Shown here piece by piece: positions 12,994-16,536 of a stretch of DNA of 51,578 nucleotides; positions within the stretch are counted from its first letter, which is position 1, and each line of letters starts with the position of its first letter. Under the pieces are notes generated by a model, which saw only the letters and a program-made list of their open reading frames with translations, was not told the DNA's origin and ran no database searches. A program made the position numbers and the translations under genes. Location: NCBI RefSeq assembly GCF_029255545.1, contig NZ_JANLJJ010000032.1, positions 1 through 51,578 on the forward strand, in the 5' to 3' direction. Source of the stretch: Ferrovibrio sp. Its GTDB lineage: Bacteria; Pseudomonadota; Alphaproteobacteria; Ferrovibrionales; Ferrovibrionaceae.

Positions 12994-13075
<82 letters not shown>

Positions 13076-13095
13076 TAATACGGCACAATGACTTA

Positions 13096-13136
13096 CGCCG
13101 CCCCGCAGAAATGCGATGGGCGGCGAAGTCGTTTTT
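13096..13136 (+). terminator. Possible terminator downstream of tRNA-Lys, within the element
   Basis: An 8-bp stem CGCCGCCC/GGGCGGCG (13096-13103 with 13118-13125) is capped by a 4-bp stem CGCA/TGCG with a GAAA tetraloop, and TTTTT follows at 13132-13136. The T-run lies six bases from the stem, so efficiency is uncertain. If real, the element supplies the terminator for the tRNA it entered. Confidence 0.45.
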
Positions 13137-13154
13137 GGAAGCACTATGGAAGCA
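13136..13154 (+). repeat. Left copy of a 19-bp subterminal repeat, probable integrase arm site
   Basis: TGGAAGCA occurs twice 11 bp apart within this 19-base unit, which recurs exactly and in the same orientation at 16192-16210. It lies 61 bases inside the left attachment repeat. Tandem short repeats with roughly one-turn spacing near both ends are what lambda-type integrases bind with their arm-binding domain. Confidence 0.55.
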
Positions 13155-13240
13155 GCGCAATTCGGGCTGGATACATCTTATACTTGCCGACAATGACACT
13201 CATGAATACGGTGTCTCGAGATGTGTCTGGGGGGGAGCCG

Positions 13241-13540
13241 ATGAAACAGAAATTTCTGGTGCCAGCATTGGCGATTTCAGCTCTGACAGCCGACGCCGGG
13301 GCAAGCGTCGGAGAAGGCGTCGTAATAGATACGAGCGACGCTGGAAAAGCGTCTCAGGATATTGCTTCTACCCAATTGAAGCATGCCTTGCCCGCAATGA
13401 CTGCAACGTATATGGCGGGCGATGATTTGTTTGTGCTTCGCCTTCTGAAAACTCAGAGCGGAACACTTATGGCGCAGCATGGCTCGCACGCGTCGCATGG
13501 TTCCCACGGTTCGCACCGCTCTCATCAGTCAGGGCGTTGA
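13241..13540 (+). CDS. hxsA: His-Xaa-Ser repeat protein (HxsA-like)
   Basis: A 99-residue protein whose C-terminus holds six consecutive His-x-Ser triplets (H80 to S97: HGS, HAS, HGS, HGS, HRS, HQS). This is the defining feature of the HxsA peptides that accompany the radical-SAM proteins HxsB and HxsC and the small protein HxsD; the system is thought to modify peptides but its product is unknown. The N-terminus (MKQKFLVPALAISALTADAG) is hydrophobic. A longer frame from 13088 exists, but the ATG at 13241 has GGGGGAG just upstream and gives the family-like N-terminus. Remnants of hxsD and hxsC follow, so the substrate gene seems intact while its maturation genes are broken. Confidence 0.8.
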   Translation: MKQKFLVPALAISALTADAGASVGEGVVIDTSDAGKASQDIASTQLKHALPAMTATYMAGDDLFVLRLLKTQSGTLMAQHGSHASHGSHGSHRSHQSGR

Positions 13541-13554
13541 CGGCCGCGGCCCCT

Positions 13555-13653
13555 ATGGTCGTCGAGTTAGCTTTTGACGCCGAGGTCTACCGACTTGAGG
13601 CAGTCAAAAAGGCGTCTTATAGAGTCGCTCGCTTCATTTCGGTCGATATATAG
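13555..13653 (+). pseudogene. hxsD: hxsD N-terminal fragment
   Basis: A 32-codon frame beginning at ATG 13555 and ending at a TAG. Its middle reads YRLEAVKKASYRVARF followed by SVDI, resembling the start of HxsD proteins (Y-x-x-EA-x-KKA-x-Y-R). Family members are, as I recall, roughly three times longer, so this is a truncated copy. The hxsC-like frame opens at 13623 in another phase, and no hxsB is present between them. This fits a deletion or frameshift that joined hxsD to the interior of hxsC. The call rests on recalled family patterns plus context. Confidence 0.6.
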
Positions 13654-13937
13654 CTGAATGGGCTGCAGCATATCATATCACTTTGTCAGATGACGTTTCC
13701 TACATTGATGTCGGGGATATTATCGCAGTTGAGCGCGCCTCAGGGCGTGTAAGGGTGCTTTTTACGGCACGTGCCGAGCACCACAGCTTTCTAGTAACCG
13801 AGCAATGCGACAACTTCTGCCTGATGTGTTCTCAACCGCCTCGCAAAATCAATGATGCATGGTTGGTTCATGAACTCGCCGAAGTTATCCCGCATTTACC
13901 CATAAGCACTAAGGAAATAGGCTTCACAGGAGGTGAT
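13623..13937 (+). pseudogene. hxsC: hxsC radical-SAM fragment
   Basis: An open frame without a good start codon (it is preceded by an in-frame TAG; the first candidate is TTG at 13683). It encodes VGDIIAVERASGRVRVLF, then LVTEQCDNFCLMCSQPP with the radical-SAM CxxxCxxC cluster motif (codons at 13806, 13818, 13827), then KEIGFTGGD, where the family continues TGGEPTL. The similarity stops at 13937, exactly where the opposite-strand HNH gene is also cut. The N-terminal part and the whole catalytic barrel after the TGG motif are missing, so it cannot be an active radical-SAM enzyme. Confidence 0.75.
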
Positions 13938-14724
13938 GGGCCTCAATATAGCCTTGGGCAAAGAGGCCGTAGACGGCGGCAAAGTCAAAGCCGCAGCCTT
14001 GGCACTTGTCGCCATGGACCTTTTTTGCAGCTTTGGCAGCCTTAGAGTCGCGATCAATTTTGCGGTGTAACCGGTAGCGCCGGCGCTCAATAATTGTGGC
14101 GGTGTATTCGTCTGTCGCTTTGGTCTCCATCGCAGCGTCAAAGGTGTCAACCCCGCCGCGGGCAGTCAGCATGACATAGAGACGAACGATTTCTTTGAGG
14201 TCTGTAGTAAGCTTTTCCTCGTCGGGTAGCGCCATAAGGTCATAGCGGACGCCAAAGGCAACGGACGGCTCATAGTCGCGGGCGAGGATTGAGGTTCCGT
14301 CGAGTATTACCGGGGTGTCCGAAAACCGGGGTAGCCGCTCAGGCAAGCGGGCTTGGATTAAGGCTGCGCGCCGTCGCAATTCGTCATGAGTACCGCGTTT
14401 AAATTCCTCTCGGATAATGGTCGTCCCTTGGGCGAGAGTTAGATAGACGGAGCTCATATCCGCGGCAAAGAGGTAGACGACGTATTGGCCGTTTGTAGCC
14501 GAGACGGTCACGTTGGGGTCAAAGACTGCAATCCATGGTACTTCGGCCCATTGGCCCTGGCCTGGGCTGCCCGTGACCTTAAAATACTCATTGCCCAATG
14601 CAGTACTTACGGCCTCGGGAGCATCGGTTCGCAGGAAGTTTGCAACCTCGTTACCGGTAAACGCGGTGCGTGTCGCGGCCAGATAATTATTTGCAATGTG
14701 CTTAAGGGTCTCTCGGATACCCAT
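13924..14724 (-). pseudogene. DUF3578 (McrB N-terminal-like) HNH nuclease, C-terminally truncated
   Basis: A 266-residue frame starting at ATG 14724 with GAGGGG five bases before it. The N-terminal ~150 residues resemble the MrcB/McrB-type DNA-binding domain (WAEVPWIAVFDP, YVVYLFAADMSSVYLTLAQG), which recognises modified DNA in type IV restriction. The C-terminal part starts an HNH domain (CQGCGFDF, YIEAHHL) but stops one residue later, before the second zinc cysteine pair and the N-H half. The break coincides with the end of hxsC similarity on the other strand. It would have been a methylation-directed defence nuclease and is now probably inactive, although the DNA-binding part could still fold. 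Confidence 0.75.
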
Positions 14725-14795
14725 TATCCCCTCAACGTCAGGTCTATCGGACCGATGCGCAATATCCCGACTCAGCTCCCGTAACCTTTAGGGCA

Positions 14796-14827
14796 ATTTC
14801 CCCCTTAGAGCCCTCTAAGGGGGAAAT
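14796..14827. repeat. Perfect 15-bp inverted repeat with 2-base centre
   Basis: Arms at 14796-14810 and 14813-14827 are exact complements (ATTTCCCCCTTAGAG type). It lies between the integrase stop and the start of the HNH gene, both on the minus strand. No T-run follows on either strand, so it may be an operator or a processing hairpin rather than a terminator. Confidence 0.6.
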
Positions 14828-14877
14828 CAGCCTAACAGGTGCGCCGGGGCTATCAGCCTCTTAGAGCGATTCAGGCT

Positions 14878-16161
14878 TTAGCCTGCGGCTTTCGTCGATT
14901 CGGTCCGCCTCTTGCCTGGGAAACGTACCACATTGTTGCCCACCCCTAAGGGGGGCGGCGCAGCCATCGTACTGGCAGCGGGAGCAGCAGGGGAGGGTGG
15001 GGCAGACGGTGCGATACCGATCAACCCGCCGATCTTAGCCGCGCCATCGGTCGCTGCCGCGCGGACTGTGGCATCGTCCAAATGGGCATAGCGGAGCGTC
15101 GTCTGGATTTGGGTATGGCCGAGCAGCTTTTGCAGTGTGGTAATCGCCATGCCGCCCTGGAGCATGAGCGAGGCATAGGTATGCCGTAGGTCGTGGATAC
15201 GGACCTCGGGCAGCTTGGCCCGCTGGCGGATATGCCGCCAGGACTTCTCCAGATTGACGGCATGCTGGCCCTCGACTTCGCCAGCAATGACGTAGGGATT
15301 GCCGTCCAGCTGCGGTATGGCGTCTATGACGGCTTGAGCCTCTGGCGTCAAAGGAATGCGCCGGGCACCAGTCTTAGAGTCCGGGAGGTTCATATAGCCG
15401 CCCCGGATAAAGGACCATTGCATGGTCTGTATTTCGCCAAGCCGGCAGCCGGTCAGGATCAGCAGCCGGAAGGCCGCAATATGGTATGACGATATCGCCT
15501 TGTCGGCTTCGGCATCCCGTAAGGCAACGCTCACCCGCTCCAGCTCAGCCGGGGTTAGATACCGCTCGCGGCGCTCCTCGCGGTATTTCTGGACATGGCG
15601 GCAGGGATTGGAGCCGTCCGGCCGCAAGCCCCAGACCTCGCAAAGGTTAAACATCTTAGAGAGGACCGAGAGCAGCCTATTGGCCCGGTATGGCGTCTTG
15701 CGCAGCTCATGATGAAGCTTGGCGATATCGGGCCGGGCCACATCGACAATCTTGAACGCCCCTAGCTGGGGCAGAATGTGGTACTCAACCAAGGATTCAT
15801 AATCCCGCTTGGTCGACGGTTTGCACCGCTTGGCCACATGCTCAGCCAGAAACCGCTCTGCGACGCTTTTAACGGTCGGGGCGCGGCGATGCTCGTCGAT
15901 GGCCTCTGCCGGGTTCTCGCCCTTGGCAACGGCCCCTAGAAGCTCCCTGGCGCGCTTGCGGGCCTCGTCTGCGGTGAGCACGCCATGCTGGCCGATCTTG
16001 ACCCGGCGCGTGCGTCCTCCGGCGCGATACTGGACCATGTAGGTGCGTTTGCCGCTTGGCATGATGCGCACGCCAAAACCGGCCACGTCGTCATCCCAGA
16101 TGAAGTAATCGCGCGCCTTCACCTCGAAGGCTTCAACGCGGCTCTTGGACAGGGTGGGCAT
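14878..16161 (-). CDS. int: Tyrosine-recombinase integrase
   Basis: A 427-residue site-specific recombinase that would integrate and excise the element at tRNA-Lys. Domains in order: DUF4102-type arm-binding domain (residues ~1-90, with FGVRIMPSGKRTYMVQYR), a SAM-like core-binding domain (~95-185), and the catalytic domain with R240 (LTGCRLGEI), K263, H323 and R326 (HDLRHTYASL), H349 (LLGHTQ) and Y358 (RYAHLD), so all catalytic residues are present. The C-terminus is Pro/Ala-rich. The start at 16161 is preferred over upstream codons because GGGAG lies 9 bases before it. Its 5' end faces the right attachment repeat. Confidence 0.95.
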   Translation of the reverse strand: MPTLSKSRVEAFEVKARDYFIWDDDVAGFGVRIMPSGKRTYMVQYRAGGRTRRVKIGQHGVLTADEARKRARELLGAVAKGENPAEAIDEHRRAPTVKSVAERFLAEHVAKRCKPSTKRDYESLVEYHILPQLGAFKIVDVARPDIAKLHHELRKTPYRANRLLSVLSKMFNLCEVWGLRPDGSNPCRHVQKYREERRERYLTPAELERVSVALRDAEADKAISSYHIAAFRLLILTGCRLGEIQTMQWSFIRGGYMNLPDSKTGARRIPLTPEAQAVIDAIPQLDGNPYVIAGEVEGQHAVNLEKSWRHIRQRAKLPEVRIHDLRHTYASLMLQGGMAITTLQKLLGHTQIQTTLRYAHLDDATVRAAATDGAAKIGGLIGIAPSAPPSPAAPAASTMAAPPPLGVGNNVVRFPGKRRTESTKAAG

Positions 16162-16191
16162 GGCTTGCAGCTCCCAGCACAACCAAATTTC

Positions 16192-16210
16192 TGGAAGCAC
16201 TATGGAAGCA
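16192..16210 (+). repeat. Right copy of the 19-bp subterminal repeat
   Basis: Exact, same-orientation copy of 13136-13154. It lies 130 bases inside the right attachment repeat and just upstream of the int start codon, so integrase bound here could also repress its own gene. Confidence 0.55.
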
Positions 16211-16340
16211 CGAAAAATAAAAAATCAAGCAAAAGTAGAGTGCTGTGGCGTAGCCAAGAGTCGGCTATGTCATTGACTCATATAGGAAGTGAGTATCACC
16301 AGGGGTTGTGGGCGTAAACCAGCGTAAATGCTTTTTCACG

Positions 16341-16391
16341 CTCTTAATCAGCGGGTCCCAGGTTCGAGCCCTGGTGCGCCCACCATTTTTC
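16341..16391 (+). repeat. attR, right 51-bp attachment repeat
   Basis: Carries the displaced 3' end of the original tRNA-Lys gene (anticodon loop to CCA plus TTTTTC), identical to 13025-13075. It marks the right boundary of the element. It is not a functional tRNA since the 5' half is absent. Confidence 0.95.
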
Positions 16392-16536
16392 CAAGCACTT
16401 AGCGCCAATACTCGAACACCGTTCAACTCCGTTCAAGTTGAACGTTCAACTTCGCGCACTGGGTTCGTTCCCACTACGGGCCCTTATGGTGCGCCCGATG
16501 GCTGCCGCCGCCTCGATATACGTCTTCCAGGGAACA
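16392..16536. other. Chromosomal spacer right of the element
   Basis: No gene seen. GTTCAAC occurs at 16421-16427 and 16444-16450, and a 15-base odd palindrome, CGTTCAAGTTGAACG, is centred at 16437. This may be an operator or chance; no adjacent gene points toward it. Together with the int upstream region (16162-16340) it makes a 375-base stretch without a protein gene. Confidence 0.4.

Follow-up and report, generated by a model that had tools for sequence, protein, structure and literature searches.

The window, a stretch of 51,578 nucleotides from Ferrovibrio sp., contains a small element of roughly 3.3 kb (13079 to 16394) at a tRNA-Lys gene, and this element holds the remains of a His-Xaa-Ser (hxs) peptide system. 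The features of the element and its target are given below.

12994 to 13069, + strand: tRNA-Lys (CTT anticodon; CUU), target of integration, left-end copy intact (ARAGORN; Rfam RF00005, 72.5 bits)
13025 to 13078, + strand: att repeat on the left, covering the 3' half of the tRNA and the next 9 bp (direct repeat D1)
13137 to 13154, + strand: GGAAGCACTATGGAAGCA, left copy, possible integrase arm-type site, identical to the right copy
13241 to 13540, + strand: hxsA2, intact, 99 aa, signal-like N terminus (by eye), NF038296 match
13555 to 13650, + strand: 5' part of hxsD, 32 codons out of about 100, followed in frame by a TAG at 13651 (HxsD profile)
13651 to 13670, + strand: junction 1, a deletion; comparison with other loci puts the missing DNA at about 1.84 kb (hxsD 3' part, all of hxsB, hxsC 5' part)
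13671 to 13937, + strand: hxsC internal fragment with the CDNFCLMC cluster motif (TIGR03977 and HxsC profile)
13930 to 13937, no strand: junction 2, hxsC tail-to-tail with the truncated HNH gene (sequence and homologs)
13924 to 14724, - strand: MrcB_N (DUF3578) protein, HNH-like end cut after ...EAHHL (PF12102)
14878 to 16161, - strand: tyrosine integrase with an Arm-DNA-bind_3 domain, complete (PF00589, 74.5 bits; PF13356, 57.6 bits)
16193 to 16210, + strand: GGAAGCACTATGGAAGCA, right copy, just upstream of the integrase ATG, identical to the left copy
16341 to 16394, + strand: att repeat marking the right end of the island, tRNA 3' half (direct repeat D1)

The 54-bp repeat D1, with copies that are 98% identical, runs from the anticodon loop of the tRNA to 9 bp beyond the end of the tRNA. 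Beside the right copy lies the integrase ORF, which opens with a GTG at 16200, has an ATG at 16161, and is free of internal stops. Flanked by direct repeats of the tRNA 3' half and with an integrase at one end, the element resembles the tRNA-borne integrase islands, which we take to be its class (tyrosine integrase with Arm-DNA-bind_3), and differs from them in being small and deleted. The tRNA-Lys island proposed by the first-pass annotation was therefore borne out in its tRNA-Lys(CUU) gene, its repeat, and its complete integrase. The 18-bp sequence GGAAGCACTATGGAAGCA, built of two GGAAGCA units around CTAT, was found twice in the window against 0.02 matches expected, once inside each island end, and could be an arm-type site of the integrase. 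Since the integrase and the att sites look whole, the remnant may still be excisable. The GC content was 0.568 for the island, 0.525 for its hxs part, and 0.642 for the rest of the window. A strong inverted repeat at 14788 to 14835 (23-nt arms, 2-nt gap) lies between the integrase and MrcB_N genes and is possibly a terminator.

The hxs gene set was reportedly described by Haft and Basu, who are cited for it in PMC9062424. A 99-residue protein ending in six His-x-Ser triplets, in an intact hxsA frame, had been claimed for this locus, and the ORF was confirmed at 13241 to 13540. It scored 69.1 bits (E 4.9e-19) against the NCBIfam model NF038296, for which the cut-off is 48, and the alignment was full-length, with residues 1 to 99 covering profile positions 1 to 96 of 96. 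The classic HxsA model, TIGR03979, gave 38.3 bits against a cut-off of 121.65. The model scores place the peptide with HxsA2 rather than classic HxsA, and the earlier name was refined in this respect. Its six consecutive triplets (HGS-HAS-HGS-HGS-HRS-HQS) form a C terminus like those of its relatives, with the family pattern kept. The window yields 1,005 stop-to-stop fragments that are 25 aa or longer, and a tandem run of three or more triplets was present only in the hxsA2 frame. PADLOC gave no family for the protein at E 0.01. When the peptide was used as the query in genome contigs, 235 pattern matches and no tblastn relative were obtained; relatives were collected via the HxsC alignment instead (281 found, best 80 kept). 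NF038296 was matched in 2 of 385 genomes of the class, the source genome and G202, the latter of which also has hxsC over the cut-off; with only two such genomes, a lone HxsA2 seen solely here says little.

Downstream of hxsA2, a profile built from 47 HxsD proteins matched 13555 to 13650 at E 7.5e-7 (profile positions 5 to 35 of 101), and the second-best match among the 1,005 window fragments was at E 9.2. The fragment was 46 to 48% identical to the HxsD proteins of L023 and L024 over 23 to 28 residues. Thus, the 32-codon hxsD-like fragment reported earlier was upheld by the profile; the 32-aa piece alone had no match in NCBIfam (including TIGR03976) or Pfam. The hxsC piece matched positions 2 to 78 of 292 in TIGR03977 (E 2.4e-25) and, with 89 bits against a cut-off of 267.9, scored as a fragment. 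A profile built from 65 HxsC proteins matched 13671 to 13937 at E 1.7e-35 over positions 77 to 165 of 392. The earlier reading of an hxsC-like fragment with an intact CxxxCxxC motif was correct as to the family and the motif (VTEQCDNFCLMCSQPP), which is retained along with 18 columns invariant with six relatives; the N terminus lacks about 76 residues too, which makes the piece a middle slice. Its best identity to relatives was 54% (best 80 of 281 relatives). Comparison of the fragments with the HxsA and HxsC models, which the first-pass annotation had suggested as a check, thus gave an HxsA2 over the cut-off and a partial HxsC, and the reading stood.

The distance from the end of hxsD to the hxsC slice is 23 nt here, compared with 1,851 to 1,929 nt (median, 1,863 nt) in 55 of 92 loci, a count that kept pairs on the same strand with an HxsC-slice match at E ≤1e-5, an HxsD-fragment match at E <1, and a gap of 1 to 3 kb, so that gaps outside this range are invisible and many of the HxsD matches are weak alone (E up to 0.94). 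In addition, hxsD and hxsC are in different frames, and hxsD runs into a TAG immediately. The short distance, the frame shift, and the stop point to one deletion of about 1.84 kb, which would have taken the last two thirds of hxsD, about 76 codons of hxsC, and hxsB in its entirety. No hxsB was detected in the window with a profile built from 68 HxsB proteins; the best match of this profile, at E 1, was on the HxsC slice.

At the other side of the slice, hxsC homology ends after GFTGGD (13937), and relatives extend about 225 residues further. The convergent gene encodes an MrcB_N protein (171.5 bits against PF12102; cut-off, 25) that terminates as ...YIEAHHLL-stop at 13924, inside the HNH motif. 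Compared with its homologs at L128 and L129, it lacks about 60 C-terminal codons, including the NCHR..H half of the HNH-like motif. The tails of L128 and L129, used as two queries in the window, gave chance-level matches only (E 0.72 and 0.80). The hxsC and MrcB_N/HNH genes thus break at the same place. Since the sequence at 13930 to 13936 (GAGGTGA) suits both sides, the event at junction 2 may have been directed by as many as 7 matching nt. As no undeleted island was found, the deletions are deduced from distant relatives. Where a complete hxsA2-D-B-C cassette would be expected, only fragments of hxsD and hxsC are present, and hxsB is absent. This confirms the missing hxsB and the broken hxsD and hxsC of the earlier account; one internal deletion and one further junction, rather than separate losses, would explain them.

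The MrcB_N gene was also followed as a lead to a full island. It was matched in 11 of 72,556 plasmid records and in 2 other genomes of 289, and the route was given up, the matches being useful only for showing the lost tail. At E 0.01, the MrcB_N protein of the window had no PADLOC family. As a guess, the longer homologs at L128 and L129 could be modification-dependent nucleases.

For comparison, 95 hxs loci were tabulated, including the best 80 genome loci obtained via the HxsC slice and 9 loci from viral contigs. TIGR03977 was over its cut-off in 6 of the 385 genomes of the class. The order A-D-B-C on one strand was found in 76 of the 95 loci, where "A" denotes at least three tandem HxS triplets with no model test; several Pseudomonas loci are close to one another, and because L024/L041 and L025/L110 are apparently the same loci twice, the counts include duplicates. 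The other orders were D-B-C-A (2 loci), B-C-A (6), D-B-C (1), B-C (6), C alone (3), and C-A (1). An A gene followed C, with B before C, in 8 of the 95 loci, and 11 had fewer genes or were cut by contig ends. In L023 (genome G202), the one locus to which the HxsA2 model was applied for A genes, HxsA2, HxsD, HxsB, and HxsC each passed their NCBIfam models. The island is like this A2-D-B-C system (NF038296, TIGR03976, TIGR03978, and TIGR03977) in its ...LMAxHxSHxSH...SGR tail and in its gene order, with hxsD and then hxsC sequence after hxsA2 as in the family. It is unlike the system in being without hxsB and in having hxsD and hxsC reduced to fragments.

Five loci of the comparative set (L053, L060, L086, L090, and L113) looked partial: hxsC was present, hxsB was incomplete or absent, and neither hxsA nor hxsD was detected. 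These loci are not at contig ends, and decay or solo use of hxsC may recur across loci. In the neighborhoods of 80 of 91 loci, namely those longer than 9 kb, a member of a single loose family of class I SAM methyltransferases was observed within about 1 kb of the hxs cassette at 10 loci. It lay after hxsC in L038, L059, L076, L080, L081, and L098, before hxsA in L066 and L083, and before hxsA on the opposite strand in L058 and L114. The L098 protein passed the Pfam Methyltransf_25 and TehB cut-offs and not the NCBIfam TehB cut-offs. It is possible that the methyltransferase is an optional tailoring gene. As an hxs-specific partner it was rejected, because the family was present in 11 of 385 genomes of the class and none of these was among the 6 with hxsC (E 1e-30). 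No plasmid record matched the methyltransferase family at E 1e-12.

The first-pass annotation had expected that an intact island might be found at tRNA-Lys in relatives. The site DNA was searched in 10 genomes of the genus, including the source genome, and the rodA/tRNA-Lys side was matched in all 9 others. Stretches of 13 to 16 kb around tRNA-Lys were fetched from these congeners (L029 to L037). No HxsA, integrase, or MrcB_N match was obtained in the nine stretches, nor any match to HxsB, HxsC, or HxsD. An exact 56-nt probe from the tRNA 3' part was present in 8 of the 9 and absent from L033. The left flank was matched, and the genes to the right of the island (a rhodanese-like gene and the next one) were unmatched in all nine; the right flank is therefore not syntenic in the congeners, which speaks against a simple empty-site picture. 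The integrase was tried as another route to an intact island. It was matched at E ≤1e-80 in 46 of 385 genomes of the class, including the source genome, and the route led nowhere in the 8 neighborhoods examined. Around these related integrases (46 to 59% identical), neither the 25-nt tRNA-Lys core nor any match to HxsA, HxsB, HxsC, HxsD, or MrcB_N was found; in L164, a tRNA-Lys(UUU) lies about 7 kb from the integrase. Thus, the expectation was disappointed among the congeners and integrase neighborhoods looked at.

A spare maturase was sought in the source genome. TIGR03977 matched the fragment and three other radical-SAM genes there, none over the cut-off, and TIGR03978 (HxsB) matched two of those three places (37.5 and 23.6 bits; cut-off, 370). 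Such weak TIGR03977 and TIGR03978 matches carry no weight, since all 14 control genomes also match at E 0.001. One of the three genes is MoaA, and the other two matched no Hxs model at E 1e-20. Among 17 other genomes of the order, none had hxsC at E 1e-15. The claim that hxsB is absent agrees with these data, as none was detected in the window by the profile search and none was over the TIGR03978 cut-off in the genome, which is a draft of 116 contigs and 97.59% complete, so that a maturase could lie in a gap.

We are highly confident that the island is a decayed hxsA2-D-B-C cassette in which two junctions explain the damage and HxsA2 is left as a relic. The element's own tyrosine integrase would have placed it in the 3' half of tRNA-Lys(CUU). 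Judging from its relatives, the ancestral island would have contained a complete hxsA2-hxsD-hxsB-hxsC set facing the MrcB_N/HNH gene. An internal deletion of about 1.84 kb would have joined the start of hxsD to the middle of hxsC, with the loss of hxsB. A second event would have joined hxsC to the HNH gene, with the loss of the 3' ends of both, possibly via the match of up to 7 nt, and both events would have spared the hxsA2 frame. To go by the family names, the intact system would consist of an exported HxsA2 precursor modified by the radical-SAM proteins HxsB and HxsC, with HxsD as a helper. Because no maturase was found, HxsA2 is regarded as a relic gene; most likely, the peptide is unmodified and without function here, and the gene is perhaps still transcribed. 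The hxsA2 ORF shows no decay, which could reflect recent loss or retained use.

A rival reading is an orphan hxsA2 that still functions, whether without modification or with modification by the maturases of neighbors or a further radical-SAM enzyme encoded in the genome. Its frame is complete, its 69.1 bits on NF038296 exceed the 51.6 bits of the HxsA2 of L023, an intact alphaproteobacterial locus, and its C terminus retains the family pattern. However, the other radical-SAM genes of the genome that matched the HxsC or HxsB model are MoaA and the two with no Hxs model at E 1e-20, and G202, the sole other NF038296-passing genome of 385, has a full HxsC, a weak argument from a single genome. A functional orphan is considered very unlikely. 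Slightly less credence is given to the idea that the maturases were shed and the retained hxsA2 works as an unmodified peptide, which might bind metals after export, for instance, or serve as a substrate in communities in which the maturases are carried by other cells.

It is similarly very improbable that the junctions are assembly artefacts and that the real genome has an intact cassette. A draft of 116 contigs leaves room for such errors, but the two breaks lie 260 to 290 bp apart within one 62.9-kb contig, and at junction 2 the two genes are interrupted at a single point. Moreover, neither hxsB nor hxsC is over the cut-off on any other contig, and an assembly error would need to have lost those pieces too. 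An origin of the fragments in a different radical-SAM peptide family, with a His-rich tail that is coincidental, is barely conceivable: the strong model matches are to HxsA2 and HxsC, an HxsD profile match accompanies them, and the three pieces stand in the hxs family order. What favors it is a single precursor with a His-Xaa-Ser motif beside unrelated radical-SAM enzymes, described in an excerpt of PMC9062424. The first-pass annotation had named as counterevidence a lack of similarity to HxsC or HxsD and a His-rich tail belonging to another family; the tests were run, and neither was found. The decayed hxsA2-D-B-C cassette is therefore the reading that we retain.

Carriage of hxs on mobile DNA is already evident elsewhere. 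With one HxsC protein as the query (E 1e-20), hxsC was detected on 431 of 72,556 plasmid records, of which 332 were from Klebsiella and 346 were predicted to be conjugative; at E 1e-10, it was detected in 2 of 50,697 phage records. The plasmid pACRY02 of Acidiphilium cryptum (NC_009468.1) is like the island in its hxsA2 type, its alphaproteobacterial host, and its place on an accessory replicon. Unlike the island, it has hxsB and hxsC annotated as genes and is a plasmid, typed as non-mobilizable, and not a tRNA island; no integrase is among the 12 features shown. According to the excerpts available, the island GI-I of Pseudomonas aeruginosa ST277 lists hxsA, hxsB, hxsC, and hxsD together with integrating-conjugative-element genes (PMC8446631), and Vibrio parahaemolyticus has a His-Xaa-Ser system in a variable region (PMC6537148). 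As far as these excerpts go, both cases resemble ours in that hxs lies in accessory DNA, whereas they concern Gammaproteobacteria in which the genes are reported as present and not as remnants. No product or function of the hxs system is named in the excerpts of PMC9062424, PMC8446631, and PMC6537148. The suggestion that the locus supports horizontal movement of hxs holds insofar as hxs is on an island; since such carriage is already in public records and papers (plasmids and GI-I), the island adds little to that point.

The element is an ordinary decayed member of a known system, and the presence of hxs on mobile DNA is not new. Here, we add that two junctions account for the damage, that the peptide is of the HxsA2 type, and that no intact copy of the island and no spare maturase was found. 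The role of the His-Xaa-Ser product is not revealed by the remnant; for that question, the comparative set (gene order, near-constant spacing, and wide plasmid carriage) is more useful than the remnant. In this Ferrovibrio genome, an hxs cassette would have traveled on a small element at tRNA-Lys before decaying; both breakpoints are now placed, and this decay fits a dispensable, accessory hxs system.
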